DNA from: Gracilibacillus orientalis | Lineage (GTDB): Bacteria > Bacillota > Bacilli > Bacillales > Amphibacillaceae | DNA length: 64,000 nucleotides | Assembly: GCF_900114645.1 (NCBI RefSeq) | Contig: NZ_FOTR01000001.1 | Location: forward strand, 310,001-374,000 | Reading direction: 5' to 3' | Shown here: positions 1-36,252 of the stretch, piece by piece | Numbering within the stretch: position 1 is the first letter of the stretch | Layout: each line of letters starts with the position of its first letter | Notes under the pieces: model-generated | The model's database searches: none | What the model saw: only the letters and a program-made list of their open reading frames with translations | What the model was told of the DNA's origin: nothing | Made by a program: the position numbers and the translations under genes

Positions 1-67
1 GCACAACGCAAAATAAAAACAGTCACAAATGACCTGTTCGTAAAATAGATAATTTAAAGGTTTATTT

Positions 68-96
68 TTTACAAATTATTACACATGCATTACAAT
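68..96 (+). promoter_or_regulatory. Sigma-A type promoter for the 145-276 small gene
   Basis: A -35 box TTTACA (68-73) and a -10 box TACAAT (91-96) are separated by exactly 17 bases, each one mismatch from consensus. They lie about 50 bases upstream of a plus-strand small reading frame with a good ribosome binding site. This is one of few plus-strand promoters in the late end of the prophage, so it may be active in the lysogen. Confidence 0.6.
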
Positions 97-144: not shown

Positions 145-276
145 TTGAAAACTACTAAATCTGACACTTACCTGAATTTAAAAAAACATTTTGAAACTTC
201 TTTAAATCGAAAGCTGAGTACCAAAGAAAAAGATTTTCTTAGATGGCTTGCTTCTAAGGTACAAGGTTCAGATTAA
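145..276 (+). CDS. Small phage protein (43 aa), TTG start
   Basis: The frame starts with TTG at 145, nine bases after AGGAG (131-135), and ends with TAA at 276. The 43 residues are charged and probably helical; the C-terminal half (KLSTKEKDFLRWLASKVQ) resembles short proteins often seen in Firmicute prophages, but I cannot name a family. It has its own promoter (68-96) and runs against the leftward late genes. Its last 23 bases overlap the 3' end of the Sda-like gene on the other strand, so the two transcripts are antisense at their ends. Function unknown; possibly expressed from the lysogen. Confidence 0.6.
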   Translation: MKTTKSDTYLNLKKHFETSLNRKLSTKEKDFLRWLASKVQGSD

Positions 277-409
277 TTCTCGATTCTATCCCTCTACTCC
301 TGATCTCATCCAATAGTAATCCAATGAAATCACTTTCTAAATCCATTTTTACTGCTTGAAAATAAGAATCAATCAATAAATCATTACTTAAATGTTTTAA
401 TCCACTCAT
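254..409 (-). CDS. sda: Sda-like sporulation inhibitor, phage-encoded (51 aa)
   Basis: The frame ATG at 409 to TAG at 254 encodes 51 residues. The core (LSNDLLIDSYFQAVKMDL, then DFIGLL and DEIRSR) follows Bacillus subtilis Sda closely: the LS-x2-LLI-x-SYF-x-A-x2-M-x-L-x2-DFI-x-L pattern is all present. Sda is a two-helix hairpin that binds the dimerisation/phosphotransfer domain of KinA and KinB and blocks the sporulation phosphorelay when replication is disturbed. A ribosome binding site (AAAGGGATG) precedes the start. The gene lies downstream of the tail genes in the same direction, at the prophage end where cargo genes are common. Inference: it keeps the host from sporulating during lysogeny or induction. 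Homology call is strong; activity is untested. Confidence 0.85.
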   Translation of the reverse strand: MSGLKHLSNDLLIDSYFQAVKMDLESDFIGLLLDEIRSRGIESRINLNLVP

Positions 410-496: not shown

Positions 497-709
497 CTAA
501 TCGGCGTTAATCTCATCCAATAAATGTTGTTGTGCTTTTGTTTCCAGTGCACCAATAGAACTGTTATCGTTGTATTCTGCCGCAGTCAATTCAAACACTC
601 CGCTTACATTCACGCTTCTTGTCTCGTTTTTAGCTGAATAGGATATTTTCACGCCTGTAACCTCGCCATTATCGTACTTAGTGTTTACTGCTCTGATTTC
701 AAAGTTCAT
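497..709 (-). CDS. Phage protein of unknown function (70 aa), tail region
   Basis: This 70-residue frame starts with ATG at 709 only four bases after the stop of the gene at 713-1090, so the two are cotranscribed. The sequence is rich in beta-type stretches (TGVKISYSAKNETRSVNVSG) and an acidic helical end. There is no signal peptide or membrane segment. Its place, second after the tail-fibre gene, is where small tail-associated or fibre-assembly proteins are found in siphoviruses. A 5-bp hairpin (ACGCC/GGCGT) overlaps the stop region. I do not recognise a family. Confidence 0.6.
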   Translation of the reverse strand: MNFEIRAVNTKYDNGEVTGVKISYSAKNETRSVNVSGVFELTAAEYNDNSSIGALETKAQQHLLDEINAD

Positions 710-1091: not shown

Positions 1092-4000
1092 TTAAACTGC
1101 CTCCTCTAATTTAGACAATCTGCTAATCAGCTGACTGTTTTCTTCTGTTAAATGAAAAACTTCCATTTCTAGCATGTCGATCCGTCGTTCATGTTCGTTT
1201 CGGTAAACCTCTAGCACTCCCCACCGTGGAATGAGACTCTGTACACCCGATAAGGCTACAACGCCCACACGGTCATAAGAAACACTTGCCGGGTTTCCTT
1301 CTGTGTCTCTTTCTGCGAGTAAGGGAATGTCGGAAGCCGCCACATCTTCCGCAACTAAACCGACATAATACCTTGCTTGAGCGCTCCCTTCCTCCTCGTA
1401 TTCTGCTTTATCTTGGAAGGTTACAGGCTGTAGTGATTGAATCTGATCAAGTGTGAACTCTACGTCCTGGATATCCTCTTTTATAGCTCGTCTTGAGCTT
1501 GATATCGCTATCCTTGAATATCCGCCGTTATCGCTTGTAAATATACGCATATTAGCCGATCCGGAAGTGGTGGTAAGATTGTCTCTGTCGACTCTCCAAG
1601 TTCCGTTTTCTCGCCACTGCATGGGGTAGCGGGTTCCCGTTGATCCGGCTACTTGTCTGATTTGAACGCCGCCCGATCCCACACCGTCACCAGGGTAGGA
1701 GTAAAACGTAAGCCTGTTGTTGTACGTTGAGATATAGTTACCGTTACCGTTATCTAAGTCGATTCTAGGTGACTTACCGGAGGCGTTAATCACTATGCTG
1801 CCGTTAGGCACTGTTAAATTTCCGTTTATTTCTTGATCCCCGTCAACTTGAACATTGCCCCAAAAATTAACATCGTTCATGAAAGTCGATCCGCTCGGAG
1901 CATCCACAACCATTTGATCGACGTAATAGTTAAGCGTGCCACTGTGTGCAATTCCGGACATCCCAAAGCCGGCAGCATCGGTATCGTCTGCAAATGCCAC
2001 ACCGTCATGATATATCCTGGCTAAATTATCCACCTGGGACAGATCGACATTTTCGGTATTAGGGTTGGATATGCCGGACTTGAATCTTACAAATCGGAAT
2101 TCCTCCCCGTTGAATCGAGAGTTGTAAACTTGATTGTCGATGGTGCTCGTTGATTCTATGAACCCATTGAAAGTAGCGTCTCCACCAAATATATGGCCTG
2201 TGAAATTAATTTGACTTGCATCAAAGGTAAACGAGTCAGCTTCTTGCGTGAATATGGATCTCACGTCGTTTTCTTCTACTTTTGATTGGATCTGATTACT
2301 CTGTTGCGTGATGGTCGACTCCGCCGTGTCAACTCTGTCCTCAAGCGTGTTGTATACAGACTGTTCAACTTTACTCGTGATTTGACCTTCTAAAGCGTCG
2401 ATACTTTGCTCTGCGGAGGACGTTCTTGTCTCAATGTCTGTTACGACTGATGCCTCTGCTTTTGAGTCGATTCTTCCTGCTAGTTGTGTTACTTGCGATT
2501 CAGCATATTCGTAAACAGAATCGATCTCGCTTTGTACGTCTTCCGGCGCCGGCGTCCATCCGGTAGCTATGTTACCTTTCTCAAATTTTAGCTCCTTCAA
2601 TTCAAACGAATACCTTAAATCAGATCCCGATTCTTCGTTTCCTATTGTCAGCCTCACTTCATTGTATCCGCTCGGAACAACCCATTTGACACTGGAATAC
2701 CCCGCTCCTGTGTCGGCAGTTATTTTCGGCCCCGATTTCGAAGTATAATCGTTGTTCTCGTCGTAAAAATCTATTCTTGCATTCCCGCCGTATCCGTTCA
2801 GGGGGTTTAAATACACTCGATATACTACCTCGTCACCTGCATTTAATCCGAGGACGTCTAAATCTTCCCGAAAAGTGGTTATTCTCCAGGTGTTATTCAT
2901 CTCACGTGTTTGGTACACGTCCGAGGTCCCTCTCGCGAGATTCCTTCCGCTGACCTCGATATCAGCAATAGCGCCGGTAACATACGTTTCATCTACTTTT
3001 GATTGGATCTGCCCGGCTTGAATACCTAGCTCCGTGTTTATGCTGCCGATCTCTGATATGTTGTCATCTGTCTTTGATTCAACCCTAGAGACCTCTGCCG
3101 TTATTTCGTCATAAGCCACCGACAGATTGCCGACTTCGTTGCTTATGGTAGTTACATCACTTGAGAGGTTTTCAACGACTGAACGTTCTGCTTTGGCTTC
3201 TATGTTGCCTTCCATAATTTCGAGGCTTGTGTTTATCTCTATGATCTTTACGCCTACAGCAGATATATCGGCGTCAATGTCTTCCGGTGCAAGTTTCCAT
3301 TCAGTCGCTTTGTTGCCTCTTTCCACTTTTGGGTACGAGTTAACAGGGTATGACACCTGGATGAAGTGCGCTCCGTCCGGCACCGTCCAATGGAATGTAT
3401 GTGCGTTTGCGGGCCTTCTATCCATATACTCCTCATTTTCATCTAGCCATTTCCAACGCCAATAATTATCGCCGTCGTCTCTTTTCGTGAATGTTAGTAC
3501 CTCTCCTGGTGTGACTTTTATATAGTCTCTCATAACGCTGTTTCCTGCGTTTCCTGTTATTTCTCCATCCTGGTTTATGTGACTGCCCTCTATTTCGTTC
3601 GTTCTTATGACAAGATTTCGGTTTTCATAGCTTAGGTTGTCAAACTCGTCTTGCAACCCTTCGACGACAACCGAATCAGCTTTAAAACTTATAGCCTCCG
3701 AATTGGCGCTTATTTGCGTGCCTTGTGTGCTTACTGCATTGTCTAAGGTGCCTATGTCCTGGATGGCTATATCAAGCTGACCTGCCACCTCATCAAACTC
3801 ATTTCGAACGGTTGTAATTCTCCCGCCCTGGGCTTCTAATTCTTCCGCATTGTTAGCGACATCTACAAGTAAGCTGTTCGTGCTGTCCTGTAACCCGGAC
3901 ACCGTGTCGTTTAGCTCGTTTACTACCTCTGCATCGGCTTTGTATTGCAGTTGTCCGTCCACGTATTCTAGATCGGCTTTATCAAGCAGCTCATTATCAA

Positions 4001-5300
4001 CCTCTATCTTGATTTGATCCGTGTACCAATTCGCATCGTCTTCTGCCTGGTCAGCTTTATCTTGCGCGCCCTGTTCCGACTCAATTACTTCTGTCCAGCC
4101 TACATCTGTTTCGATTTTGTCTGCTGCATCATTACCAGGTTTGTCTTTCTCGTCTATTTCCGGTTTAGTATAAGTAGCTTCCGTCAATTCCGACATGCTA
4201 ATTTTTTGTTGGATTTGTGCTTGCAATGACTTCCATATTGCGTTGACTTCTTCTTCGGTGTATTCTGTGAAATCGCCTAATCGCACTTGCTTTTCCGCTT
4301 GATCTTTAATATCTCGATCTTGGAAAAAGATACGTGCGTCTAAATAAAGAGCCGGTTCATAACTGGTATCTCTTATTTGAATGGTATCACCAAAGCGAAA
4401 TTTTTTGTGCTCTAATCCTGGTACCTTTTCCAAATCGGCAATAGTCCCCTCATATGAAACAATAGCGTTCACACGCTTAGCCAACTCCGCTTCACCAAGT
4501 TCGATTAGCCTTTCTTCGGTTGCATTCTCTTCCATTTCAAATTGAGGTTCATAATCTTTAATAATATGGTTGCCGTTACGTGACCACCGTTGGAAAGCTT
4601 CTTCATCTTCGACAACCACTTCCAAACGATCACCGTTTTCGTCAGCTGGACCAATGACGTTTAGCGCAGTTACAATTTCTTCTGTATTTTCTACACGTCG
4701 TAAACCTAATAAGTCTTTACCAAACTCTACACGTCTACCACGCCATTCACCAACACGCTCTAATAAGTCAACATATCTTCCAGTTCTTTTTCCGTTGTGA
4801 TGTTCAATTCGGAAATGTAGCTCTAAATTAAAGACAGATGCGAGTCGTTTTAAATATCCATAAGGGTGTGTACGGCTTTCAAATTGGATAGTCCGTACTG
4901 CATCACTTTCAATGACTCCTACTCTCCATTCAGTACTATCTAATGCAATTCCTGCATGTTGTCCAACTGTTAATGATGAAGTGGTATGTTCAGGTATGAC
5001 TTTTGCTGTTCTTAGTTCCGCATAACTAGCATAGCTATATACTTCCAATTCTCTTTCAATACGATCTTCCTGTACTTCATAAATAATAAATTCTAAAAAA
5101 TCACCATCCTCTCCAGGAATGATGATCCGGTTATTTCCTCCAATAAATGATGAATAGGGTTTATCAGCATGTGTAGTAAAATCAAACGTCTCACTACCAT
5201 CTTCAAGCGATTTCTTATGGCTATTGGAGATGACGTTTCGATACCTTATATGTGATAATGCTTCATAATTATTACCATCTGCTACAAATACTTGTGACAT
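1092..5300 (-). CDS. Tail-tip endopeptidase-type baseplate protein fused to fibre with S74 chaperone domain
   Basis: This 1402-residue protein is the host-recognition fibre. Residues 1 to about 370 match the siphovirus tail-associated (prophage endopeptidase/Tal) domain that follows Dit. A long central part has coiled-coil repeats (paired SKVE/ITTIS-type heptads) broken by two jelly-roll modules that each end in a WxxAPED-type motif (WKLAPED near residue 670, WTPAPED near 910). The C-terminus is an intramolecular chaperone of the peptidase S74 type: SSSRRAIKEDI with the Ser and Lys of self-cleavage, then a terminal coiled coil that trimerises the fibre and is cut off. RBS GAGGTG precedes ATG 5300. 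The part below about 4200 looks richer in G+C than the N-terminal part, suggesting module exchange. Confidence 0.9.
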   Translation of the reverse strand: MSQVFVADGNNYEALSHIRYRNVISNSHKKSLEDGSETFDFTTHADKPYSSFIGGNNRIIIPGEDGDFLEFIIYEVQEDRIERELEVYSYASYAELRTAKVIPEHTTSSLTVGQHAGIALDSTEWRVGVIESDAVRTIQFESRTHPYGYLKRLASVFNLELHFRIEHHNGKRTGRYVDLLERVGEWRGRRVEFGKDLLGLRRVENTEEIVTALNVIGPADENGDRLEVVVEDEEAFQRWSRNGNHIIKDYEPQFEMEENATEERLIELGEAELAKRVNAIVSYEGTIADLEKVPGLEHKKFRFGDTIQIRDTSYEPALYLDARIFFQDRDIKDQAEKQVRLGDFTEYTEEEVNAIWKSLQAQIQQKISMSELTEATYTKPEIDEKDKPGNDAADKIETDVGWTEVIESEQGAQDKADQAEDDANWYTDQIKIEVDNELLDKADLEYVDGQLQYKADAEVVNELNDTVSGLQDSTNSLLVDVANNAEELEAQGGRITTVRNEFDEVAGQLDIAIQDIGTLDNAVSTQGTQISANSEAISFKADSVVVEGLQDEFDNLSYENRNLVIRTNEIEGSHINQDGEITGNAGNSVMRDYIKVTPGEVLTFTKRDDGDNYWRWKWLDENEEYMDRRPANAHTFHWTVPDGAHFIQVSYPVNSYPKVERGNKATEWKLAPEDIDADISAVGVKIIEINTSLEIMEGNIEAKAERSVVENLSSDVTTISNEVGNLSVAYDEITAEVSRVESKTDDNISEIGSINTELGIQAGQIQSKVDETYVTGAIADIEVSGRNLARGTSDVYQTREMNNTWRITTFREDLDVLGLNAGDEVVYRVYLNPLNGYGGNARIDFYDENNDYTSKSGPKITADTGAGYSSVKWVVPSGYNEVRLTIGNEESGSDLRYSFELKELKFEKGNIATGWTPAPEDVQSEIDSVYEYAESQVTQLAGRIDSKAEASVVTDIETRTSSAEQSIDALEGQITSKVEQSVYNTLEDRVDTAESTITQQSNQIQSKVEENDVRSIFTQEADSFTFDASQINFTGHIFGGDATFNGFIESTSTIDNQVYNSRFNGEEFRFVRFKSGISNPNTENVDLSQVDNLARIYHDGVAFADDTDAAGFGMSGIAHSGTLNYYVDQMVVDAPSGSTFMNDVNFWGNVQVDGDQEINGNLTVPNGSIVINASGKSPRIDLDNGNGNYISTYNNRLTFYSYPGDGVGSGGVQIRQVAGSTGTRYPMQWRENGTWRVDRDNLTTTSGSANMRIFTSDNGGYSRIAISSSRRAIKEDIQDVEFTLDQIQSLQPVTFQDKAEYEEEGSAQARYYVGLVAEDVAASDIPLLAERDTEGNPASVSYDRVGVVALSGVQSLIPRWGVLEVYRNEHERRIDMLEMEVFHLTEENSQLISRLSKLEEAV

Positions 5301-5333
5301 TTTTTCACCTCAATTCTGAGTTGTGACATCCTT

Positions 5334-6791
5334 TTATGAGTACCTCCTTCGATATCTGCCGCTAATATTAAAGCTATCGCTTGGTAATGCTGCAATTTCA
5401 TTATCTCCCTTTTTCAAGGTGAAATAATCCACCCCTAGCATGTTTTCCTCATACACTTCTCCATTGATGTATACTTGGCCGTTATTGGTATGATTAAACG
5501 TGATAATATCGCCTGGATAAGCAATGTATGGCGTTTGATCTTCCGTAACTTGAAGTAATTTCTCTACTTTTAATTGATTGACTCGTGCTATATTTGGGTT
5601 CGTCCGACCTCTGTATGTTCGGATGTACGCTTGAATATACTTTAATCTTCCTAGCCATTGACCAGATCTATCTTTGAAACGTCTTCGAGTCCAATTTCTT
5701 AATTCCCCGTTTACAATCCGGTAAATATTAAATTCAAAGTTAATTCCTTCACGTTTCCATTTGATGAAAAACGTCAATGCAGGACCACTATTTCGGAACT
5801 GAAAATTACCGGAGTGTATAAAATAGCGTGTGGTGCTATCAACATACTCACCAACCCTAGCTAATCCGTTACGTTCATGGAAGTTTCGATTCCCGTCATG
5901 TATCCCAATTTTACCTAACATGTTCATTCCTTCGTCAAACGCATAAAGCTCGACTCGGAAATTTTGATTTAAATCATTTGTTCGAGTGTCGATGATGGTT
6001 GATATTTCAAAATCCTCAATAGCTTCTGGAAGTTCTTTAATGATCGCAGGACCATATCCGTCATTACCACTAACAGGACTACCGTAGTCATCTGCTATAA
6101 TACCTGTTCCATCATGTGTCATGGTTCCGTTGCTGATAGCTCCGCTGATCGGATCGATTTCAGTTCCGTTTGTCATCCAGCCGTCCATGTTCCCATCTTC
6201 TGAAAAAATAAGTTCTCGGCTATCTACTACTTGCACATCATCGTCAGCCGGTTCACCTATCATCATATACTCATTTAGTTGATTTTGAATCATCAAAAAG
6301 GTAACAGGAGCAGTTACTTCAAATTCAAATATTGGTTCTGCTTCCGCAGTTCCTGTGTTGGTAATACTGAAATAACCGGATGATGCAATGAATTCTAGTT
6401 CCGGACCGTAGCTGTAAGGATCAGGACATAAAAAAGTCAGCGTGCCTCTACGCTGATCTACAAACTTTTGATAATCTTCTATTGTTCCTTCTAACTTAGC
6501 AAAATATGTTCGCCCTGGTTCATCGTCTAATTTCAACTCTACTGTTTTACCAGTTAGCAGCCATTCCGCTAATTCATCTTTTTTAGTCAAAGCATCTGCA
6601 TCATCTTCCACAACAAAGCCAACTGGTTGTGTAATGTAAAGAACATCTATCGTTTCATTTTTTAAATAAGCACCAGGCATACCTGGAACTCTTAACAAGT
6701 TATTATTTCTCGGAGCAAAGGGGGCTTTTTGTCTGCCTTCCAATAGATAAATCCACGGTTTTCTTTCGCCGTTGAATGTTAGTGATTTCAT
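5334..6791 (-). CDS. Distal tail protein (Dit / siphovirus tail family)
   Basis: Dit forms the hexameric hub joining the tail tube to the receptor-binding baseplate. The N-terminal 130 residues (MKSLTFNGERKPWIYLLEG, then the RGTLTFLCPDPYSYG segment) are typical of the Sipho_tail domain. The remaining 350 residues are extended beta-rich material, longer than a minimal Dit and probably carrying carbohydrate-binding insertions. I place the start at ATG 6791, six bases after AGGGGGTG; an in-frame GTG at 6800 lies inside that ribosome site. The stop codon of the tape measure gene is part of the same ribosome site, so the two genes are coupled. Confidence 0.85.
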   Translation of the reverse strand: MKSLTFNGERKPWIYLLEGRQKAPFAPRNNNLLRVPGMPGAYLKNETIDVLYITQPVGFVVEDDADALTKKDELAEWLLTGKTVELKLDDEPGRTYFAKLEGTIEDYQKFVDQRRGTLTFLCPDPYSYGPELEFIASSGYFSITNTGTAEAEPIFEFEVTAPVTFLMIQNQLNEYMMIGEPADDDVQVVDSRELIFSEDGNMDGWMTNGTEIDPISGAISNGTMTHDGTGIIADDYGSPVSGNDGYGPAIIKELPEAIEDFEISTIIDTRTNDLNQNFRVELYAFDEGMNMLGKIGIHDGNRNFHERNGLARVGEYVDSTTRYFIHSGNFQFRNSGPALTFFIKWKREGINFEFNIYRIVNGELRNWTRRRFKDRSGQWLGRLKYIQAYIRTYRGRTNPNIARVNQLKVEKLLQVTEDQTPYIAYPGDIITFNHTNNGQVYINGEVYEENMLGVDYFTLKKGDNEIAALPSDSFNISGRYRRRYS

Positions 6792-6796
6792 ATTAT

Positions 6797-9700
6797 TCAC
6801 CCCCTGAACTTTTCTTTTACTTTTTTATCGCGTTCTTGGAATTCTGTCACACTTTTATAAGTGTACCTTCCAATTTCTCTACCATCCATTTGATTAATCA
6901 CAGTGGTGTAGATTACTGCTTCACCTTGTGATTGTTGTGGTTGGTTTAATCTATTAGCAATCCGATCAGCTTCACCCGTTGGACTTACGCCCGTAGCATA
7001 GCCAGGTATATTATTTAATGAGCTTAGTATTTTCTTTGATTCATCATGCGTGAATATTTGTGTACCTTGAGGTAGATTTGCTAAGCCAAAATCAAACATC
7101 CCCCATTGATCTCCGTGTCTCGCTAATTCAAATCCTTTTTCGCCTATCCAGGTTAAACCACCTTCAAAAGAATCATTACCATCATAGTTAAATCTATTAG
7201 TTGGCATAGTTTTGTGTTGTAAGGACGGAGTCCGTGCAGTCGGAGCTGACATAGATATTTTCTGAGTAAAAATATCTCTTACATTTTTCCACGCAGCCCT
7301 TGCTGAATTAAATAATGAGCTAGTTGACCCTAAGTTTGGGGAAGGCATTGTAATGGCCTGTTTGAAAACATCTTTAATATCACCGTAAATACCTTTGCCT
7401 TTTGAATAGATTTTAGCAAACTCTATCGCAGAATTAGCGCCTAGCTTTTCCCATTTACTTAAGATCTCACCTGTCGTAAGATTAACTTGTTCAATTAATT
7501 TAGGATTTTGTTCTTTCGCTTCATCAATTACACCTTGATGCCTATTTTCGGCTTCTTTGACCGTTTCATTTTTGCGACGTTCAGCATCTTTTATCAATTG
7601 ATCTGTCAAACCTTCTTCAATTCCTTCTAACTCATCTCGCATGTTTTCATAGGTCGTTTTTTGTAAATAATACTGATTCTCTGCTTCAGCAATGACCCCT
7701 TCTTTTGTTTCAATTGAATTCTTGATCGTATCAGCCATCTGTCTTTTTCCTATATCTTCTGCTTGATCTTTCATTCTTTCCAAAATAACCTGTTGTTCTT
7801 GCTCGTTTTCAGATAGTACTTCAATTGCATTATTTTTCATTTCTTCTTGGATTCGGTTAACTTCTTGTTTCTCTTCTGTAGTGGTTTTTCGATTTTCTTC
7901 TGCTGCAGTTTTATATATTTCATCAATTCTTGCTGTCGCTTCTTCAGTTGCTTTAATTCGCTCTTCGAAACTTTCGGTTGCACTATTTAATATTTCAGTT
8001 TGTTCCTCATCACTAATATCTTTAGCGCCATCAAACATTTCTTGGATAGCAGATAGACTTTCATCTTTTCTTTGCTCTAAACCATCTACAATTTGTTGGC
8101 CCATCTGATCAAAGGTGCCGGTTAATGATTCTGCCATTTCTTCAGATACTTCTTTACCACTCCACGCCAATTCATTCAATTGCACAGTAGCTTCATCATT
8201 TAATTCCATAAAACCGCCAACAGCTTTTTCTGTCGAATCAGAAACGGAATCACCAAACAAATCTATTTCCGGTATAACGTCTTTTTTCATGTGACTATGG
8301 AGAGCAATACCTCCTGCAGTTAAACCAGCTATGGCTAATGTAGCTAATGCAACAGGTCCACCACCTGCGCCAAGTAATCCTAAGCCGCCAGCAAGTGTTG
8401 CTTTTCCTGCCGCACCGCCGCCTTTTCCAGACCTACCGATGACACCTGCTAATTTTCCCAGTGTGGTAAACGTTCCTCCAGCAGTCTTAGTAATACCACC
8501 TAACATTAAAGATGCTGGTCCGATAGCAGCTGCAAATGCACCCATTTTAATAATGTTATCCTGAGTTGATTTATCGAGGCTACCAAACCAATCTACCAGG
8601 TCTGTTAAACCTTCCACACCTCTCGTAAATGCAGGTAACATGTGTTCTGTAAATTGGATTGATAATTCTTCGAAAGAAGATTTTAAACGATTAATATTTC
8701 CTTGAGCGTTATCTTGCATTGTTTTTGCCATGTTATCTAAAGCGCCATCTGCTTCTGACACGCTTCCTTTTAAATCACCGTATTCATCATCGATTCCTGC
8801 AAGTAGACCTTGGAATGATTTAAGATGCTCTTTACCAGCTATCATAGAAATGTAATTTGCTTTTTGTTCATCTGTCATATCCTTGGTACGATCTTTTACA
8901 AGTCGCAACGTTTCTTCCATTCCGATAAACTGGCCATCTGCATCAAAAGCGCTTATTTCTAATTCTTCCAATGCCGTTCCTGCTCGACCAGCTCCGCTTG
9001 TAAGGTTAACCATGATAGCATTAAGCGATCGACCAGCTTCACTACCTTTTAAACCTCTATTTGCTAATAAACCAAGCATAGCAGTGGATTCTTCGAGTGG
9101 TACGTTAAACTGCGCTAAATTACCGCCTGCTGTAACATAAGCTTGCATCAGTTGATCGATACTCGTATTAGAGCTTCTTGACGCTTCGGCTACGTTATCT
9201 AAGTATTTTGGCAAGTCCTGTACCCCGATTTGCAAAGCAGACATGGAGTCTGTGGCTAAATCAGATGCACGCGCTAGATCAATATTACCAGCTTCAGATA
9301 AACGAAGAACAGGTTCCAAGCCATCCATCATCTGAGTGGTATCCCAACCAGCGAGTGCCATATAACCTAGCGCATCTGCTGCTTCACTTGCACTCTTGGA
9401 AGTCGTGGCGCCAAGTTCACGTGCGCTACCTTCTAATTTTTCAAGGTCTGATCCAGTAGCACCACTAACTGCCTGTACATTGGACATTGACGATTCAAAT
9501 TCAATACCTGTTTTCAACATAGCTCCACCTAAACCGACAATAGGAGCAGTTACTTTCATACTCATATTTCTGCCGAAAGTGGTCATTTTATCACCGGCAG
9601 CCGTTAATTTTTCTCCAGTATTGGTAAGGTTTTTCTCCAGGTTTAGCCATGGGTTGCTTTGACGTTTTATTTCTTCCGTTACGCCTTTAAGAGCATTTTC

Positions 9701-10027
9701 TGTTTTGTTCATTTCCGCTTGTGCTTTTTGATAAGCAGTCATGGCTTTTTGTGTTTCTTTTGAGTTTTCTCCGGTTGCTTTTTTGCTTTCTTCGTACCGT
9801 TTTCTAAGTTCTCTAACTTTCTTCTGTTGCAGTTCAAAAGTTCTGCCTAGCACATCCGATTTCTTTCTTAATTCATCTACTCCACGAGCGAAGCCAGTTC
9901 CAGTTGAGGTGACCGCTTTTTGCTCTTGCTGCAGACTTTTCAATTGTCTGTTAACACCTGACATAGATTGGTTAAATTGTGCTGAGTCTAAACTTATGGT
10001 GGTTCTTAATGATCCTACGTTTGCCAA
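6797..10027 (-). CDS. Tail tape measure protein
   Basis: The tape measure sets tail length and passes through the cell envelope during DNA injection. The 1076 residues show the usual plan: an N-terminal coiled coil (about 10-150), the conserved TIGR01760-type core around residues 165-480 (GLGGAMLKTGIEFESSMSNV, then LMQAYVTAGGNLAQFNVPLE), a Gly/Ala-rich hydrophobic stretch (about 520-580) and a long helical tail. The start is probably TTG 10027 (MANVGSLRTTISLD), eight bases after AGGAGG; GTG 10036 overlaps that site. It is the longest reading frame after the fibre, and by the length rule would predict a tail of roughly 160 nm. Confidence 0.93.
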   Translation of the reverse strand: MANVGSLRTTISLDSAQFNQSMSGVNRQLKSLQQEQKAVTSTGTGFARGVDELRKKSDVLGRTFELQQKKVRELRKRYEESKKATGENSKETQKAMTAYQKAQAEMNKTENALKGVTEEIKRQSNPWLNLEKNLTNTGEKLTAAGDKMTTFGRNMSMKVTAPIVGLGGAMLKTGIEFESSMSNVQAVSGATGSDLEKLEGSARELGATTSKSASEAADALGYMALAGWDTTQMMDGLEPVLRLSEAGNIDLARASDLATDSMSALQIGVQDLPKYLDNVAEASRSSNTSIDQLMQAYVTAGGNLAQFNVPLEESTAMLGLLANRGLKGSEAGRSLNAIMVNLTSGAGRAGTALEELEISAFDADGQFIGMEETLRLVKDRTKDMTDEQKANYISMIAGKEHLKSFQGLLAGIDDEYGDLKGSVSEADGALDNMAKTMQDNAQGNINRLKSSFEELSIQFTEHMLPAFTRGVEGLTDLVDWFGSLDKSTQDNIIKMGAFAAAIGPASLMLGGITKTAGGTFTTLGKLAGVIGRSGKGGGAAGKATLAGGLGLLGAGGGPVALATLAIAGLTAGGIALHSHMKKDVIPEIDLFGDSVSDSTEKAVGGFMELNDEATVQLNELAWSGKEVSEEMAESLTGTFDQMGQQIVDGLEQRKDESLSAIQEMFDGAKDISDEEQTEILNSATESFEERIKATEEATARIDEIYKTAAEENRKTTTEEKQEVNRIQEEMKNNAIEVLSENEQEQQVILERMKDQAEDIGKRQMADTIKNSIETKEGVIAEAENQYYLQKTTYENMRDELEGIEEGLTDQLIKDAERRKNETVKEAENRHQGVIDEAKEQNPKLIEQVNLTTGEILSKWEKLGANSAIEFAKIYSKGKGIYGDIKDVFKQAITMPSPNLGSTSSLFNSARAAWKNVRDIFTQKISMSAPTARTPSLQHKTMPTNRFNYDGNDSFEGGLTWIGEKGFELARHGDQWGMFDFGLANLPQGTQIFTHDESKKILSSLNNIPGYATGVSPTGEADRIANRLNQPQQSQGEAVIYTTVINQMDGREIGRYTYKSVTEFQERDKKVKEKFRG

Positions 10028-10039
10028 TGCGATCACCTC

Positions 10040-10234
10040 CTAGAACAATTTAAGTTGATCAATGTATGTTTTTTCCGGTTGATGCAATTCCAAATAAAAA
10101 TGGATGTCCATCTCGTCAATTTGACCGAGCGTCCACCCATTCTTTAATAATTGTTTATATAAAGGTTTAATAACCTTCTCTTTTGTTTCTTTCGCTTTTC
10201 TAACAAGGGAAGCTTTCACCTCTTCAGGCGTCAT
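10040..10234 (-). CDS. Tail assembly chaperone, T-part of gpG-T frameshift product
   Basis: A 64-residue frame in the -1 frame relative to the gene before it. It can be read from its own ATG (10234, ATGA overlap), but a canonical slippery heptamer at 10249-10255 lies just upstream, so it is most likely made as the C-terminal extension of the first chaperone (gpGT). In lambda-like tails gpG and gpGT coat the tape measure protein and recruit tail tube subunits; the T part is cleaved from nothing but released on assembly. Short, helical and charged as expected (KPLYKQLLKNGWTLGQIDEM). Directly precedes the tape measure gene. Confidence 0.8.
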   Translation of the reverse strand: MTPEEVKASLVRKAKETKEKVIKPLYKQLLKNGWTLGQIDEMDIHFYLELHQPEKTYIDQLKLF

Positions 10235-10575
10235 TGCTTCCCCGTTTCGTTTCCCTCTTCAGCTTCCTGTTTTTCTTTATCTAATTCTTTTGGTGTTTTA
10301 CCGGTACGAACATAGACAAATACGTCTGTAATACTTGAGATAACTTCATGTGATGGGATGCCGTCATAAAATTGATTGGTGTCAAATTGGTTATCGAATA
10401 CATCGCATACAAATCCTACTAGCGTATCCATCTGTTCCACATCGATATCTGAGTAATCAATTGTTTCATCAAATTCATTCACTTTACGGAAATAAAAGCC
10501 GCTTACATGTCCTGTTGTATATATCTTCTCTTGTCTTTCGCCGTCCTGATTCTTTTCCTTTAAAATGATCTGCAT
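10231..10575 (-). CDS. Tail assembly chaperone gpG-like
   Basis: This 114-residue acidic protein lies between the major tail protein and the tape measure gene, the invariant place of tail assembly chaperones. It has an N-terminal beta-rich part (GHVSGFYFRKVNEF), a central helical part (DTLVGFVCDVFDNQF) and an acidic hydrophilic end in which the slippery site lies. It would bind the tape measure protein during tail formation and is not part of the virion. RBS AGGAGG precedes ATG 10575 by nine bases. The family identification rests on size, position and the frameshift signal. Confidence 0.8.
   Translation of the reverse strand: MQIILKEKNQDGERQEKIYTTGHVSGFYFRKVNEFDETIDYSDIDVEQMDTLVGFVCDVFDNQFDTNQFYDGIPSHEVISSITDVFVYVRTGKTPKELDKEKQEAEEGNETGKQ
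10249..10255 (-). promoter_or_regulatory. Programmed -1 ribosomal frameshift site (GGGAAAC)
   Basis: Read on the minus strand in the gpG frame the heptamer is G GGA AAC, fitting X-XXY-YYZ and nearly identical to the lambda G-T site (GGGAAAG). After a -1 slip the new frame reads without stop through R-N-G-E-A into the start of the 10040-10234 frame. The zero-frame stop follows 16 bases later. Conserved position in tail chaperone genes of many siphoviruses. Confidence 0.8.
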
Positions 10576-10587
10576 GTGTAATTCCTC

Positions 10588-11157
10588 CTACAATTCTGGT
10601 GTTTCTTCATATACATCAGAAAACCAATTATCAATAATGGACTGTTCCATGCCTTCGTCGTCCTCATCAACCTGTGCCCCGTGCATATTATCAGAATGAC
10701 GTCTGATAAAACGGCCATTAATTGTTGGTGTCTGAAATGCTGGTGTCTCCTGTTTTGTTTCGTAATTGGATTCTGGTGGAGTGAATTTACCTTTATACAG
10801 CACGACATAACGATATTTACCATTCGCTTTTTCTGAGCGAAAAGCAAGCGCTCCGTATGGCGGTCTATCATCTTCACTATCCATGAGTACGCCATCGCTG
10901 TTAATTTTTTTATCTAGTATTTTTGATTGTGCCTGCTTGGTAATATCTTCTGTCTGGACTGTTACGGTAGTTGCTCCTCGTGCTTCTGCGGTTTCTGCAA
11001 CACCATCCTCTGCTCTTAAATCAGCAGAGTTAAATTGAGGCTGGACATTAGCTGTCATAGCTAATCCAATACGTACCGGTTCTTCATACGTTGTTCCCTC
11101 TTCATCATCTTTAGTAATGGGGAAAAAGTGTAAATCTCTTAAACCTACTGTTGCCAT
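10588..11157 (-). CDS. Major tail tube protein (phi13-type)
   Basis: This 189-residue protein forms the stacked rings of the tail tube. It starts MATVGLRDLHFFPITKDD, typical of the phi13-type major tail protein family, and has the GKYRYVVLYKGKFTPP and TPTINGRFIRR beta segments expected of the tube fold. It lies between the tail-completion gene (overlap by one base at 11157) and the chaperone pair. RBS AGGAGGAATAC precedes ATG 11157. No Ig-like decoration domain is added at the C-terminus, so it is a short version. Confidence 0.88.
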   Translation of the reverse strand: MATVGLRDLHFFPITKDDEEGTTYEEPVRIGLAMTANVQPQFNSADLRAEDGVAETAEARGATTVTVQTEDITKQAQSKILDKKINSDGVLMDSEDDRPPYGALAFRSEKANGKYRYVVLYKGKFTPPESNYETKQETPAFQTPTINGRFIRRHSDNMHGAQVDEDDEGMEQSIIDNWFSDVYEETPEL

Positions 11158-12495: not shown

Positions 12496-12530
12496 CTAAT
12501 CACCTTCTTCCTAAAGAAAAGAGAGCGATA

Positions 12531-12866: not shown

Positions 12867-12897
12867 AATTAACTACCTCCTAAATATTATTTTTAAA

Positions 12898-14193
12898 TTA
12901 AACTTCTGGTGTTGGTTCAGTTTCCGGTACTACTGTGATATCAATTTGGCCAAATATAACTGCTTCCTCATCCCACTTCGTAACGTCTTCACGCTCAATT
13001 ACGCGGAATTCAGTAGTGTTACTTCTCCAAGCATTCCCGCCTTCTTTAGTCATATCTAAAAGCATTTGTTGACGATCCCAGTACACGATCGCTTCTTTCA
13101 AATCCCCAATAATAAACGGCGCCATACCTGCTTGGGTGGCAATTGTTTTATTAGATAACTTAACAATCGGATGCGTTCCGAAGAGCAATTTACGTGTTGC
13201 TTGAGTTGGGTCTGGTTGTAACAATGGACGGCCATTTTTATCTTCTAATTGATCTAGATAGTTAAACCCATCTTGGTTCGTGAAAACTAATGCGCCTTCT
13301 GCAAATGCAGGATCTAATGTAACGTTGAGGGTAGTTTTAATCCCTTTGTAATCATCCAAATTTGTTTTATCCAAAGTGTTTAATTGTTGCAAAATAAGAT
13401 GGTTACTTGTTGCTCGTGATTTTTTAGCAATCCAATTCACTAGATAAGCCCGTAAAGCTTGATCTGTATCAGCTAAAACAGTATTGGCAACAGGCAAGAA
13501 ACCTGCATAATCTTCGATGCTATAAGATAAACGATCAAACTTAGGCGAATTTACCTCTTCCATAGCGTTCGGATCTCCGTATTCGGACAATGGTGATAAA
13601 GGAGTATGATCGGCACGTCTTTCAAGTGTACGGGATCCTTTGTTTGTAGTAACAGGCTCCACCGTTACGTATTGACGTAAATCATCTGTTGTTTGCGCCA
13701 ACTCATTAATTTGAGTAGAAATATCCTCGGGAATAATATACCCGCCGTCTTCACCATTTTCCGCAGTAAGACGAGCATAGAATTTCTCCATAACCTCCGT
13801 TTCGTCATCTGATAATTTATGACCTCGTAAGGCTTTAAAAAATAGTGCACGGTATTCTTTGTCTTTATTTTGTTTCGGATCACCGGGCAACTGGCCACCT
13901 CGTGCTTGTGGTTCCGGAACGGCTAATCCTTGGAAATCTTGTTGTAGTGCCAAGAAATTATCAAGATCATTTTTAGCTGCCTTTGCTTTTTCTAATTTTG
14001 CTTTTGCTTCTTCATACTTCCCATCATCCTGAAGCGCTTGTGCTTCGTCTTTAAGATCCGCTACACTTTGACGTAACTCTTGCTCGCGCTTGGTCATACC
14101 AATGGCGCCATCCATTTTCACCGAAAGAACATTTTTATTTGTTGATAAGCTAAACATTGCACTGGTTAGTGCATTAGTAATTAGTGTTTTCAA
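12898..14193 (-). CDS. Major capsid protein, HK97 fold
   Basis: The 431-residue precursor builds the icosahedral shell. Residues about 30-100 form the coiled-coil delta scaffold (TKREQELRQSVADLKDEAQAL) that the adjacent ClpP-like protease removes; the mature HK97-fold part starts near residue 110 and includes the GGYIIPEDISTQINELAQ, LPVANTVLADTDQALRAYL and IVYWDRQQMLLDM segments typical of the family. I use TTG at 14193 as start because AAAGGAGG lies eight bases upstream; a later ATG (MTKREQ) is possible but has no such site. It ends close to the 12531-12866 gene. Confidence 0.92.
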   Translation of the reverse strand: MKTLITNALTSAMFSLSTNKNVLSVKMDGAIGMTKREQELRQSVADLKDEAQALQDDGKYEEAKAKLEKAKAAKNDLDNFLALQQDFQGLAVPEPQARGGQLPGDPKQNKDKEYRALFFKALRGHKLSDDETEVMEKFYARLTAENGEDGGYIIPEDISTQINELAQTTDDLRQYVTVEPVTTNKGSRTLERRADHTPLSPLSEYGDPNAMEEVNSPKFDRLSYSIEDYAGFLPVANTVLADTDQALRAYLVNWIAKKSRATSNHLILQQLNTLDKTNLDDYKGIKTTLNVTLDPAFAEGALVFTNQDGFNYLDQLEDKNGRPLLQPDPTQATRKLLFGTHPIVKLSNKTIATQAGMAPFIIGDLKEAIVYWDRQQMLLDMTKEGGNAWRSNTTEFRVIEREDVTKWDEEAVIFGQIDITVVPETEPTPEV

Positions 14194-14229
14194 TTCCTTT
14201 TCCTCCTTTTGAGCATAAAAAATAGACCT

Positions 14230-15000
14230 CTATATACTTAGTAGGTCCAGCTCATTTTGTAATTTGATTTTTTCTACTTCTTCATTTTCTTGGGTAACGG
14301 TTGGTGGTTCATTATTTTGTTTATCTGCTAGTAACTTCTGTGGTGTCTTATCGTATCTGTTTAAGACATCACTAGCACATGCAGCGTAATTTTTCGCATC
14401 TGCCACTTCAACATTAAAATACTTGGCAGCCTCCTCACCATTTAACCAGGTTTCGTTGTCCAACAATTCTTGTATCGTTTCTTCCGTGATGCCTTCTTTT
14501 AAATTTCCCTTGTAGACATTCAATGCTCCGCTTGAAATCGTATCTAAATCATCCGCTAGTTTTCGAAAATCATTGGCATTTCCAACAGCAATCGTCCAAG
14601 GATTGTGGATCATAAGAAAAGCATTTGCCGGAATATGAATGGTATCACCGACCATTGCAATAACTGAAGCCATCGATGCAGCTACGCCATCTACATGAAC
14701 TGTCTTTTTCGCTTTATTGCGACTCAGCATATTGTAAATGGCTAACCCCGCAAAAACGGACCCGCCCGGACTATTAATAAATATGTTTAAATTATCTAGT
14801 CCATCTACCTGTTTCAATGCATTTAATACATCCTCTGGCATCACATCTGCTTCATCCCACTTAAAATCGGTGTTATCGATGATCTCACCATAGATATAAA
14901 GGTCTGCAGATGTTTCGGTGAGGTTCTTAACCGTCATTAATTGATTTGTGCTTTGAGTACCTGCACTCATGAAAATAGGATAATGTCTAGTCTTCTTCAT
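14230..15000 (-). CDS. ClpP-like prohead maturation protease
   Basis: A 257-residue S14/ClpP-type serine protease that cleaves the capsid scaffold. The ClpP fold is seen from FINSPGGSVFAGLAIYNML, with the catalytic Ser in VAASMASVIAMVGD and the His in FLMIHNPW; an acidic residue of the triad follows about 50 residues later. The C-terminal part is charged and may act as scaffold. I place the start at ATG 15000 after AAAGGGGGTGAGG; an in-frame GTG at 15009 lies inside this ribosome site. It overlaps the portal gene by 14 bases, the usual portal-protease-capsid order. Confidence 0.9.
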   Translation of the reverse strand: MKKTRHYPIFMSAGTQSTNQLMTVKNLTETSADLYIYGEIIDNTDFKWDEADVMPEDVLNALKQVDGLDNLNIFINSPGGSVFAGLAIYNMLSRNKAKKTVHVDGVAASMASVIAMVGDTIHIPANAFLMIHNPWTIAVGNANDFRKLADDLDTISSGALNVYKGNLKEGITEETIQELLDNETWLNGEEAAKYFNVEVADAKNYAACASDVLNRYDKTPQKLLADKQNNEPPTVTQENEEVEKIKLQNELDLLSI

Positions 15001-16237
15001 TTCCCTCACCCCCTTTCAAGCCTGCTTTTCCTAATTGATAATCATCTGCAATATCAAGTGATACATGATTAAGATCTACCCTGTGTTTATCTCCGCCTTC
15101 TATTGCATTCTTATCCTCCAGTTCACGTACTTCGTTGATGTTGTATACACCTTTATCAAGCATTATTTGATAATACTCCGCTTGCGTTTTCTTATCTGCT
15201 CTTAATAAGCTTTCAAGGTTGAATTTCAAATAATACCTTTTTTGTTCACGTTCAGAAAAACAAACATACGAAAACTCTTCTTCATATTGTTTTAGGTTTG
15301 GACTCAACGTAAACATGATTAGAGATAAATTCTCATGCTCAATGTTCGAGTGGGTTGCTCGATCCAATTCGTTAACCATGTGAAGTGGAATATCAAACAT
15401 AGTAGCAATTTCACTTTTGTCAAACTTCATGCTTTCTACAAATTGAGCATCTTTTAACGGCATCGATATACTTTGGAATTCCAATCCAGCATCTAAAATA
15501 GCAATACGTTGAGCATTGTTTAATCCAGTGTTTGCTTTTTCCCACTCACTGCGAACTACATCTTTAGCTTCTGGATTTAACATGCCAGGCACTTTCAACA
15601 CGCCACTATTAGATGCACCGTGTCTATAAAATTTACCCTTAAATTTCTGAGCCGCTTGACTACTCCCTATTGACTCTCTAGCAACTTGAATAGGCGGCTT
15701 ACCTTTCAAACCGTCAGTAGATAAAGTAGTGAGATGAATAATATCTCCATGGCCAATCCTTACATATTCACCGTTTGGTAAAGTGGTGTAGTACCATAAT
15801 TCATTTGTTTTCACATCTACAACCGGATCGGTATTTGCTGGGTTTAATAGCCATAACTCTTTCGGTCTGCCGTCCGCTCCCCAGTTAATATTGATGTACG
15901 CATTACCCCAGGTATTACGATGCGTTTCGGTTAAATGCTTGAATTTAAAAGGACTTTGATAAGGGTTCGGTCTATTCTCCAATAACTTCGATACAATATG
16001 ATTTTTTTCACGTTCCCTACCTTTGCTTGTCCGCTTATACATCTGAAAAGGCAACATCGCAATCGCATTTGATTTGATGTTCACGCATCGATAAACGGTA
16101 GGAATTGCTAAAGCTGAATTCACGGTTACTTTTTCACCGCTTGCTGACTCATGACCAAACATCTTCATAAACCATGGAGCTGGATTTTTTAAGTCTGTAG
16201 TTTCCCCTTTTGGGGACAGGGCTTGTTTAAATATCAA
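14987..16237 (-). CDS. Portal protein (HK97-type)
   Basis: The 416-residue portal forms the dodecameric DNA gate of the head. Family segments are present: VNSALAIPTVYRCVNIKSNA near residue 40, HGDIIHLTTLSTDGLKGKPP near 165, and DIPLHMVNELDRATHSNIE near 290, followed by the helical wing. It starts with TTG at 16237, nine bases after an AAGGAGGTG site that is formed by the end of the small membrane-protein gene before it. The stop lies inside the protease gene. Confidence 0.92.
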   Translation of the reverse strand: MIFKQALSPKGETTDLKNPAPWFMKMFGHESASGEKVTVNSALAIPTVYRCVNIKSNAIAMLPFQMYKRTSKGREREKNHIVSKLLENRPNPYQSPFKFKHLTETHRNTWGNAYININWGADGRPKELWLLNPANTDPVVDVKTNELWYYTTLPNGEYVRIGHGDIIHLTTLSTDGLKGKPPIQVARESIGSSQAAQKFKGKFYRHGASNSGVLKVPGMLNPEAKDVVRSEWEKANTGLNNAQRIAILDAGLEFQSISMPLKDAQFVESMKFDKSEIATMFDIPLHMVNELDRATHSNIEHENLSLIMFTLSPNLKQYEEEFSYVCFSEREQKRYYLKFNLESLLRADKKTQAEYYQIMLDKGVYNINEVRELEDKNAIEGGDKHRVDLNHVSLDIADDYQLGKAGLKGGEGNEED

Positions 16238-16252
16238 TGTCTATCACCTCCT

Positions 16253-16459: not shown

Positions 16460-16471
16460 GATTATTACCTC

Positions 16472-18178
16472 CTACATGGTCCAGTTATTTAAGAAATGGT
16501 TACTGATATCATTTGATTCGTTACTCATAGATCGTGAAAATGCATTTATAACAGCTGCAATTGGGTCAATTCGCTCTCTTGATTTTGACTTATCCAGCAT
16601 AATATTTTCTTGAGCATCCTGCTTTTGGATGGCGTTACTTACTGCCCAAGATAGCAACGGGTCATTGAAATGGATTATGTTATTACTATAAACAAATTTA
16701 CGAAAATCTTTTGTTGGACCTGATAAATGTCTTAGCATTTGTGGAATCTCCACCATCTCAAAACCTTGCATTTCCATCATTTGAGCAAAATGAGTTGCGT
16801 TCCATTTATCGTAATTGATTTCTTGGATATCATAGCCTTCATCACGTAAATTTAATATATACTGTTCGATATAACTATAATCAACTACACTGCCTGGTGT
16901 AGTAGTTAAAAATTCTTGTTTTTCCCATAAGTCAAAAGGAACTCGATCGCTATTAATTCGCTCCTGTAATTTATCCTCTGGCATAAAAGAATGTTGCCTT
17001 ACCGCAAATTTGTTATCTGGTAATCGGAACACTAAACCAACACTTGATAAGTCTGTTGTAGTAGATAAATCAATACCAACCCAAACTGGATATTGCTTTA
17101 AATCAATTTCTTCAGACTCGCATTTTTTCCATTTAGACATTTCCATATATCCATCTTCTTTTGCATCAACCCAGATATTCATGTTTTTCGTTAAAAAGTT
17201 TTTCATTTTTTCTGGGACATCCAACGCTACTTTTAATTGCTTACGTATATATTCAATGCCATTTTCATAAGAACATAAAATAGGATTGGCTTTTGGCCAG
17301 TTTTCTTCATTTTTTATGTCATCATCTTTATCCAATTCATTAATCATCACAAAGTAGTTATCATTTTCAATCGGATCGTTGGGATCTAATATTCTTGAAA
17401 CATATTGATACTCGACACGATAACAAGGTTTATTTAAGTCGAACCCTGCAGTAGTAATAATCATGAGTAACGGTTGTAGCCTTGCACCCATACCGGAATC
17501 ACCTATATCGTATATCTCCATTGTTTCATGCGCATGGTATTCATCGATAAAGAATGCGCTTGGGTTTGTACCGTCACCGGTTTTTCTATCCTCTTTACTT
17601 AATGGCTTTATGATGGATCCGCTTTTCAAATGTGTAATAGTGCCATAAGCAACTTTAAAACGTTCACGCAAGTCTGGATTGCCCATGATCATAGCTTCTA
17701 TTTCTTCCCAAACAATTTTAGACTGGTCTTTTTTAGTTGCAGCACAATAGACTTCTGCAGAAGGCTCACCAAATGCTGATGCTTCATAGCTACCAGAAGC
17801 ACCTAATGATTGTGATTTAGCATTCTTTCTACCTACTTGCCAGTACCCTTTATTGAATCGTCTTAACTCAGTATCTTCATGAACCCATCCATAAATATTG
17901 CCGAAGTTAAATTCTTGTATGATGTGAGGTTCAATGTACTGACCCGCTAAAACGCCTTTCCGATGTTTGAATAATCTCATCCAATCAAGAAATAATTCAC
18001 CGCGATCTTCTTCAAAAATATAAGGGAAGTCTTCAGTTCCTTCTCTTTCGATGTCATATAAAAAACGCTGACATGCCCACCTGTGTTTTTCACAAGCAAT
18101 CACTTCACCGCTTAATACCTCTTCGCTATATTTTATTAGTCGTACTCTAAGTCCAGGTTCTGCAGCAACGTTATGCAT
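16472..18178 (-). CDS. Terminase large subunit
   Basis: The 568-residue motor-nuclease packages the genome. The ATPase domain has a Walker A-like loop QVGRKNAKSQSLGAS near residue 120 and Walker B FFIDEYHAHE near 220; the RNase H-like nuclease domain has the first Asp in VWVGIDLSTTTDLSSVG near 375 and a late acidic site in RIDPIAAVINAFSRS near 545. It belongs to the Terminase_1 family. It starts one base after the TerS stop (TAAATG), without a strong ribosome site, which suggests translational coupling. Confidence 0.95.
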   Translation of the reverse strand: MHNVAAEPGLRVRLIKYSEEVLSGEVIACEKHRWACQRFLYDIEREGTEDFPYIFEEDRGELFLDWMRLFKHRKGVLAGQYIEPHIIQEFNFGNIYGWVHEDTELRRFNKGYWQVGRKNAKSQSLGASGSYEASAFGEPSAEVYCAATKKDQSKIVWEEIEAMIMGNPDLRERFKVAYGTITHLKSGSIIKPLSKEDRKTGDGTNPSAFFIDEYHAHETMEIYDIGDSGMGARLQPLLMIITTAGFDLNKPCYRVEYQYVSRILDPNDPIENDNYFVMINELDKDDDIKNEENWPKANPILCSYENGIEYIRKQLKVALDVPEKMKNFLTKNMNIWVDAKEDGYMEMSKWKKCESEEIDLKQYPVWVGIDLSTTTDLSSVGLVFRLPDNKFAVRQHSFMPEDKLQERINSDRVPFDLWEKQEFLTTTPGSVVDYSYIEQYILNLRDEGYDIQEINYDKWNATHFAQMMEMQGFEMVEIPQMLRHLSGPTKDFRKFVYSNNIIHFNDPLLSWAVSNAIQKQDAQENIMLDKSKSRERIDPIAAVINAFSRSMSNESNDISNHFLNNWTM

Positions 18179-23174: not shown

Positions 23175-23175
23175 C

Positions 23176-34168: not shown

Positions 34169-35254
34169 GTGGCTATTTACAAAGATAAAAAACGAGGAAC
34201 GTATTATGTAAGTACCTATGTTGATTTAAAAAACGGAGATCGTAAACGTGTATTAAAACGAGGATTTAAAACGAAGAAAGAAGCAAAAAAAGCAGAGTCT
34301 GAAATTGTGTTTAATGCTGCCATCGATAACCCTGATAATCCATTTTTTACTGATGTGGTAGATGAATACATCTCTTGGTACGAAAAAAGAAGAAAAGAGT
34401 CATCATTGCATCGTTTGAAAAAAGAATGTCGTCTTTACATCAATCCTTTTTTCGGCAGAAAACACATCCAAGATATTAAAAAACGCGACATTATGAAATT
34501 TCATGATTTTTTGTTGGATAGATTGTCAATCACGACATCAAAAAACGTACACGGGTATTTATCTGCTATATTTAATTATTCTATAAAAATGGAATACGTT
34601 AATTTGAATATAGCTAGGGAAGTAGGCAATATACAAGCAAGCAATAATAAGAAAATGGAATACTGGACACTTGAGGAATTTAAAGAATTTTTAAAAGTGG
34701 TAGATGATTTCAGAGATAAAACTTTATATATGTTTCTTTTTTATAGCGGGGCGAGGATTGGAGAATTAACTGCGCTGACCTGGAAAGATATTGATTTTGA
34801 CAGCAATACGATCGATATCAATAAAACATTTTACAAAGATGACATAGTGACAACTCCGAAAACAAAGTCGTCCATCAGAAAAATAAAAATGCCTACCCAC
34901 ACGATGAACATGTTAAAACAACTAAAATTACAGCAGGCTCCTAAAAATGACTATTATGCATTCGGTAAATTTTACAGTCCTTACCCTTTCGCCACTATCA
35001 AAGGACGTTTTTTAAATTATAAAAATAGTACAAATTTGAAACCGATCAGATTACACGATTTTAGACACTCACACGCATCATATTTGATTAATAATGGTTA
35101 TGACATACAAATCGTTTCCAAGCGTCTAGGGCATGCTAAAATATCCACGACTTACGATAAATATGCCCATTTATATCCTAATAAAGAAGAAGAAGCAATC
35201 GACCATATGAACAATGATTTTAAGCCCGCAGATGCTATAAAATTGATAAAATAG
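34169..35254 (+). CDS. int: Tyrosine integrase
   Basis: A 361-residue phage integrase. An N-terminal arm-binding AP2-like domain (KDKKRGTYYVSTYVDLKNGD) is followed by the SAM-like core-binding domain (about 60-160) and the catalytic domain with Arg in YSGARIGELTALTW, the HxxR box in LHDFRHSHASYLI, His/Gly in LGHAKISTTYDKY and the nucleophile Tyr in the same segment. GTG 34169 follows AAGGAGG. It is the last phage gene before the comK junction, the usual place beside the att site. Confidence 0.96.
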   Translation: MAIYKDKKRGTYYVSTYVDLKNGDRKRVLKRGFKTKKEAKKAESEIVFNAAIDNPDNPFFTDVVDEYISWYEKRRKESSLHRLKKECRLYINPFFGRKHIQDIKKRDIMKFHDFLLDRLSITTSKNVHGYLSAIFNYSIKMEYVNLNIAREVGNIQASNNKKMEYWTLEEFKEFLKVVDDFRDKTLYMFLFYSGARIGELTALTWKDIDFDSNTIDINKTFYKDDIVTTPKTKSSIRKIKMPTHTMNMLKQLKLQQAPKNDYYAFGKFYSPYPFATIKGRFLNYKNSTNLKPIRLHDFRHSHASYLINNGYDIQIVSKRLGHAKISTTYDKYAHLYPNKEEEAIDHMNNDFKPADAIKLIK

Positions 35255-36239: not shown

Positions 36240-36252
36240 AGGGTGAATGTCC

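Follow-up and report, generated by a model that had tools for sequence, protein, structure and literature searches.

Sda is a small protein that stops spore formation, and its native gene is governed by a DnaA checkpoint. The Sda proteins of B. subtilis and Geobacillus (PF08970; 1PV0, 3FYR, 3D36) are like the protein analysed here in family match, length and Leu/Phe contact positions, whereas the present copy is phage-borne, has no DnaA box found upstream and forms a pair with a small gene convergent to it. Bacillaceae chromosomes as well as Priestia and Sporosarcina plasmids carry accessory Sda copies of the same family; some of these have this partner too, likewise convergent, but no phage structural genes were recognised around the copies examined. 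DevI of ICEBs1 is also a small protein of a mobile element and holds back host development, probably by way of Spo0A; it differs in its 86 aa, its conjugative element and its lack of informative motif matches, and it is not called Sda in the portion of that paper available (PMC8032392). Phage and plasmid Rap-Phr, Spo0E-like and AbrB-like genes are also carried by mobile elements that touch the path to Spo0A; in the accessible part of the source (PMC10075063) Rap acts on Spo0F-P, whereas an Sda would act on the kinases atop the pathway. Phage sigma factors (PMC9429907) are phage genes too and lower the spore yield when expressed in B. subtilis, but they act on transcription and not on the initiation kinases. 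Among the matches listed in a search of the open-access literature no paper announced a phage-borne Sda or its partner as its subject, and the word 'sda' was absent from the main text of the phage sigma-factor paper and of a survey of sporulation genes in gut phages (PMC10294663).

The window analysed was the whole stretch of 64,000 nucleotides (C14:310001-374000) from a genome in 29 contigs. The original prediction had placed in it a 51-codon gene with a ribosome site. The open reading frame, with an ATG start, was found at that place on the minus strand, the prediction having given no strand, and AAAGGGA upstream resembles a ribosome site. The predicted match to Sda was borne out: the proposed alignment with Pfam PF08970 gave a match of residues 5-46 far above the cut-off (E 3.9e-13, 49.3 bits against 22.6), and this match was recovered in the whole-genome profile search too. 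A phmmer search against PDB sequences (E up to 1) gave three matches, all of them Sda (3d36_C, E 1.2e-7; 3fyr_A, 3.1e-7; 1pv0_A, 5.6e-7), and the protein could be aligned over 41-45 residues with the solved chains. No match was obtained in NCBIfam or PHROGs. Aligned with B. subtilis Sda, for which a sequence identical to a RefSeq protein was used, the phage protein was 41% identical, and its L24 and F28 corresponded to L21 and F25. These two residues are reported as part of the surface contacting the DHp domain of KinA in the available text of PMC7430163. Both reported contact residues (Leu, Phe) are thus kept in the aligned phage sequence.

The gene lies in a prophage of about 37 kb which looks complete, between the tail genes and the holin and endolysin genes. 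The main features are given in Table 1.

Table 1 Features of the prophage and of the sda cassette, with positions in the window
Feature	Position	Strand	Basis
Weak bulged hairpin followed by T-rich tract	17..39	minus	not significant against shuffles
Promoter-like site TTTACA-17-TACAAT before partner gene	68..96	plus	3 sites found, 4.4 expected from shuffles
Partner gene, 43 aa, TTG start	145..276	plus	copy in second prophage; family alignments A5, A7
Phage sda	254..409	minus	PF08970; PDB Sda matches; near-identical copy in second prophage
70-aa phage ORF upstream of sda	497..709	minus	phrog_30730, E 9.7e-5
125-aa phage ORF	713..1090	minus	phrog_1401, E 1.1e-10
Phage tail/minor structural protein, 1402 aa	1092..5300	minus	
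Distal tail protein Dit	5334..6800	minus	
Tape measure protein	6797..10036	minus	
Major tail protein	10588..11157	minus	
Major head protein	12898..14193	minus	
Portal protein	14987..16237	minus	
Large terminase	16472..18178	minus	
HTH_3 (Cro/CI-type) protein, probable phage repressor	33209..33646	plus	
Phage integrase, right end of prophage	34169..35254	plus	

The original prediction had located sda at the tail-side end of the prophage. This location had to be corrected, as the phage genes go on beyond sda: past the left edge of the window the contig has a 130-aa ORF (phrog_37894) and the genes for a holin (PF05105) and an amidase endolysin. With phage genes on both sides, sda belongs to the interior of the late region, where tail genes give way to lysis genes, and not to a junction with the host. 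The flanking phage genes and a native sda elsewhere rule out a native host gene at the prophage edge; the region 1-480, for which the prediction had considered host chromosome with the sole sda of the genome, is internal to the prophage. The ends of the prophage are approximate, since the search for att repeats gave only two 11-bp repeats between window positions -2999 to -1800 and 35001-36800, and no tRNA was found in the window or in loci L004-L006. Just beyond the integrase end lies a gene for a pentapeptide-repeat protein (37515-38150).

Promoter and terminator signals around the cassette were not above those of shuffles. The promoter scan found no promoter of its own for phage sda. The hairpin with its T-rich tract is possibly the end of the sda transcript; the terminator scan found no terminator.

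The host genome has three PF08970 matches, namely the native gene (C27), the phage copy and a third copy (C22). The native gene, whose presence on the host chromosome had been suggested as a check, adjoins yqeG, yqeH and aroE, names which we take from the B. subtilis gene order and which also stand as annotation in locus L175. It is preceded by four exact TTATNCACA boxes, at 94-167 bp from the ORF start used. The 560 bp upstream of phage sda were free of DnaA boxes, even when one mismatch was allowed; the nearest such box lies 563 bp upstream of the start, or 256 bp past the end. When up to one mismatch was allowed, the number of boxes was at chance at both loci (24 with 23.6 expected; 14 with 18.1 expected), so it is the cluster of four exact boxes that sets the native gene apart from the phage gene. 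No yqeG match was obtained at the phage locus either. With neither a yqeG match nor such a box within 560 bp upstream, both of which the C27 copy has, the phage copy is a paralogue and not the native gene. The third copy (L006:7727-7870) has Val in place of the contact Leu and adjoins a gene named by eye as a solute-binding protein; copies like it occur in two sister species (L029, L031).

Components of the pathway on which an Sda would act are encoded by the host. Spo0A is present, and 16 HisKA matches were found, of which 15 are over the cut-off. The best PDB match of one kinase (L102) is 3d36_A, the KinB crystallised with Sda (E 8.7e-42), with another sensor kinase, 3a0r_A, near-equal (1.1e-41). 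For a second kinase (L103) KinB ranked third among the PDB matches.

A second species of the genus (G012) has a largely divergent prophage with the same 265-bp cassette of sda and its convergent partner. The cassette DNA of the two prophages is identical at 256 of 265 positions (96.6%). The sda genes differ at five bases, four of them silent and one changing an amino acid, while the partner genes differ at four bases with two amino-acid changes. At the protein level the identity is 95% for the partner, 98% for Sda, and 85% and 88% for the two ORFs that follow (178/213 and 330/378 at the DNA level). The matched ORFs within 1092-18178 are 28-65% identical, the integrase is 24% identical, and the lysis genes gave no match between the two prophages. 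At the DNA level, conservation is higher in the cassette than in its flanks. The cassette is not the sole stretch common to both phages, as other shared ORFs match at 45-93%, the highest being early ORFs at 23040-23952 with 91-93% protein identity.

A search for the flanking 125-aa gene in 156 genomes of the family gave matches in five, among them G012 and the host genome itself. In the 12-16 kb examined in the prophages of the other three (G044, G156, G074), tail-end genes followed by lysis genes were recognised by eye, and no Sda or partner match was found. The cassette is present in two of five prophages having this tail-end gene and absent from the same slot in three relatives, and is thus moron-like.

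The phage Sda was rarely encountered in the databases. Three Sda queries gave no credible match in the 50,697 phage records of INPHARED (best E 0.8). In IMG/VR a provirus of 37,983 bp with a 100% identical Sda was the only one found among 2.9 million viral contigs by a pattern search of limited reach. An Sda relative as close was found in one of 84,980 species genomes; the closest in that scan, from Aquibacillus saliphilus (74%), contains an in-frame TAA. For the cassette DNA in 397 sampled genomes of the order, the matches listed outside the own genome came from at least 11 genomes and were at most 67 bp long, G012 being absent among them.

Taken together, the Sda paralogue is probably a moron of a temperate phage that would inhibit the sporulation kinases of the host, with the convergent partner as the second part of the cassette. 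Its most likely effect would be to block these kinases, so that an infected or induced cell stays vegetative; such a hold on sporulation would fit the findings. In the proposed course Sda would be made from the phage genome, probably upon late-gene transcription, and would bind the DHp domain of the kinases. Spo0A would then stay unphosphorylated and the cell would remain vegetative and able to make phage. The position on the late-gene strand favours expression of sda after induction. Against this reading, expression from a late operon would be strangely timed for a block of sporulation, and the cassette is known in two phages only. The other stretches shared by both phages, the chance-level promoter and terminator signals, the chance-level counts of DnaA boxes with up to one mismatch, the spread of the partner family beyond Sda and a close Paenibacillus Sda without partner count against it too. 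If the protein is a kinase inhibitor, the top of the pathway would be under phage control, freed from the DnaA checkpoint of the native gene.

Beyond the original prediction, the analysis brought out the convergent partner gene, the second phage and the occurrence of the pair on plasmids and chromosomes. The partner ORF has a AAAAGGAG ribosome site, and its end overlaps the end of sda by 23 bp. Read-through past the end of either gene would be antisense to the other, so that the partner, if expressed in the lysogen, and sda, if expressed late, would tend to be mutually exclusive. The least certain step is a possible action of the partner protein on Sda itself or elsewhere in its pathway. An antagonist, a second effector and an antisense regulator may all fit the layout, and the layout by itself would be suggestive of a toxin-antitoxin pair.

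The partner gave no match to Pfam, NCBIfam or PHROGs, and none of its relatives reached a cut-off in Pfam (n=9) or NCBIfam (n=8). Eighteen members share the pattern 'Y..L..eFE..LNRkLT.kEKeFL.WLA.K', with R22, L24, E28 and W34 invariant. Partner and Sda are similar in size, and a profile comparison that treated the partner as a divergent Sda gave E 0.098 over 11 columns, without support. Kinship with DnaD/DnaB was not supported either: one member reached E 0.0072 against DnaB_2, under the family cut-off, and alignment A7 had a best E of 0.34 against PDB sequences.

At the level of the order the partner family has matches in 130 of 397 genomes. Thirty such loci, the window itself being one, showed an Sda within about 3 kb in five and none in 25. 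A weaker family member (33-42 bits) lies far from Sda in 13 of 14 multi-copy genomes. In loci L165-L174 a weaker member occurs without Sda, nine of the ten loci being near ywdK/gerQ/cwlJ-like genes; this member is possibly a core gene of the family.

The linkage of Sda and partner was analysed over 106 Sda matches, 83 from 14 genomes outside the genus having at least four matches and 23 from the genus (16 of 17 genomes). This choice of multi-copy genomes enriches for accessory copies. The native genes beside yqeG account for 30 of the 106, and none of their 3-kb loci has a partner. For the 76 accessory copies a partner was found within 500 bp in 15 and none nearby in 61. The linked pairs are convergent (tail-to-tail) in eight cases, tandem in six and divergent in one. 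In three of the tandem cases the partner is interrupted or incomplete (G042:434382 and G042:2925674 contain TGA; G045:C30 is partial). The ends of convergent genes overlap at six loci, by 23 bp in both phages and by 4, 11, 11 and 4 bp in the others; the two further pairs are 15 and 154 bp apart.

Counted from the partner side in 31 genomes, 19 of 34 partner rows lie more than 500 bp from any Sda match. Among the best 13 rows (at least 44 bits), seven of which are rows of the query alignment A5 itself, 11 lie within 500 bp of Sda and one lies 4.6 kb off. In the remaining one (L060:5969-7807) Sda and partner are separated by 1.56 kb with transposase genes, presumably of IS3 type. The three top non-phage matches of the phage Sda by score, in a comparison of 108 Sda segments with the plasmid records outside the set, are all partner-linked (L050, 56%; L140, 51%; L052, 50%).

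The accessory copies were also considered as prophage genes. No phage structural gene was recognised by eye around them, the ORFs being viewed over about 8.5 kb in 20 stretches (more in L063) and mostly over 3 kb in 44 loci, and this candidate was rejected. Downstream of Sda in L059 are recombination-type genes, and the region beyond looks chromosomal.

Sda-like stretches were found by tblastn in 15 plasmid records, of which 11 were examined in detail. Four Priestia plasmids (L177, L182, L184, L185) have the partner convergent with Sda at 3-7 bp, while five records (L178-L181, L183) have Sda and no partner; among the latter is a 63% identical Paenibacillus Sda on a 2.7-Mb replicon (L183), with flanks free of the partner. 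Two linear records filed as plasmids (L175, NZ_CP035192.1; L176, NZ_CP021671.1) have the native chromosomal sda-yqeH-aroE locus and are probably misfiled chromosome pieces. On the Priestia aryabhattai K13 plasmid (L182:2507-4891) Sda and its convergent partner share one stretch with a gene of the Spo0E family and a convergent pair of SinI-family genes, so that regulators of sporulation and of biofilm formation are clustered there. On the mobilizable Sporosarcina plasmid pSporoP37 (L181:2501-2617) Sda lies between TraD-type and MobA-type transfer genes.

The similar pairs on chromosomes and plasmids of related bacteria indicate that mobile DNA may influence the timing of spore formation. The recurring partner defines a concrete small-protein family, and it may bear on the 4-10 Sda matches found in each of several genomes of the host's family. 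It is tentatively proposed, as something possible and short of probable, that Sda and the 'FExxLNRxLTxxEKxFLxWLAxK' protein make up a two-gene module that would move between the phages, plasmids and chromosomes of spore-forming Bacillales. In such a module the tail-to-tail genes with their overlapping ends and an antagonism of the proteins would act as a switch setting entry into sporulation for the benefit of the element.

For the phage cassette itself, a somewhat unlikely explanation is an antagonistic pair in which the partner would bind or counter Sda and the cassette would be a regulated switch. In the quiescent lysogen the partner would be on, the host would sporulate and the prophage would be carried in spores, while after induction Sda would be on and sporulation blocked. 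The repeated adjacency, often tail-to-tail, on phages, chromosomes and plasmids and the similar size of the two proteins speak for this explanation, but partner-family members lie far from any Sda, 61 of 76 accessory copies are without a partner, and the profile comparison of Sda and partner finds nothing.

A benefit to the lysogen was judged unlikely, though a fair competitor of the main reading. Here constitutive Sda would delay sporulation and matrix production and lysogens would outgrow their neighbours, by analogy with DevI of ICEBs1, a precedent taken from the available part of PMC8032392. The Sda genes on Priestia and Sporosarcina plasmids, which lack a lytic phase, point in the same direction, whereas the phage gene lies on the late-gene strand and the promoter scan found none of its own. 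That the gene is a neutral passenger, or an Sda turned to another histidine kinase, is improbable: the 41% identity to B. subtilis Sda and the few close relatives (one in the species genomes, short matches only in the 397 sampled genomes) would agree with it, but the cassette has diverged less at the DNA level than the flanks have, four of five base differences in sda are silent and the KinA-contact residues are kept.

Further arrangements of accessory sda genes were observed. Response-regulator-like genes, named by eye, stand beside accessory sda in L053, L066, L122, L134, L141, L155 and L156. Convergent Sda-Sda pairs, 99-146 bp apart, occur in L051, L054, L136, L138, L142 and L144, and such pairs occur also in L152 and L154. 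These pairs adjoin a conserved XRE-type regulator gene and mostly also a gene for a protein with 'NFGKGP', and the locus recurs in several genera.
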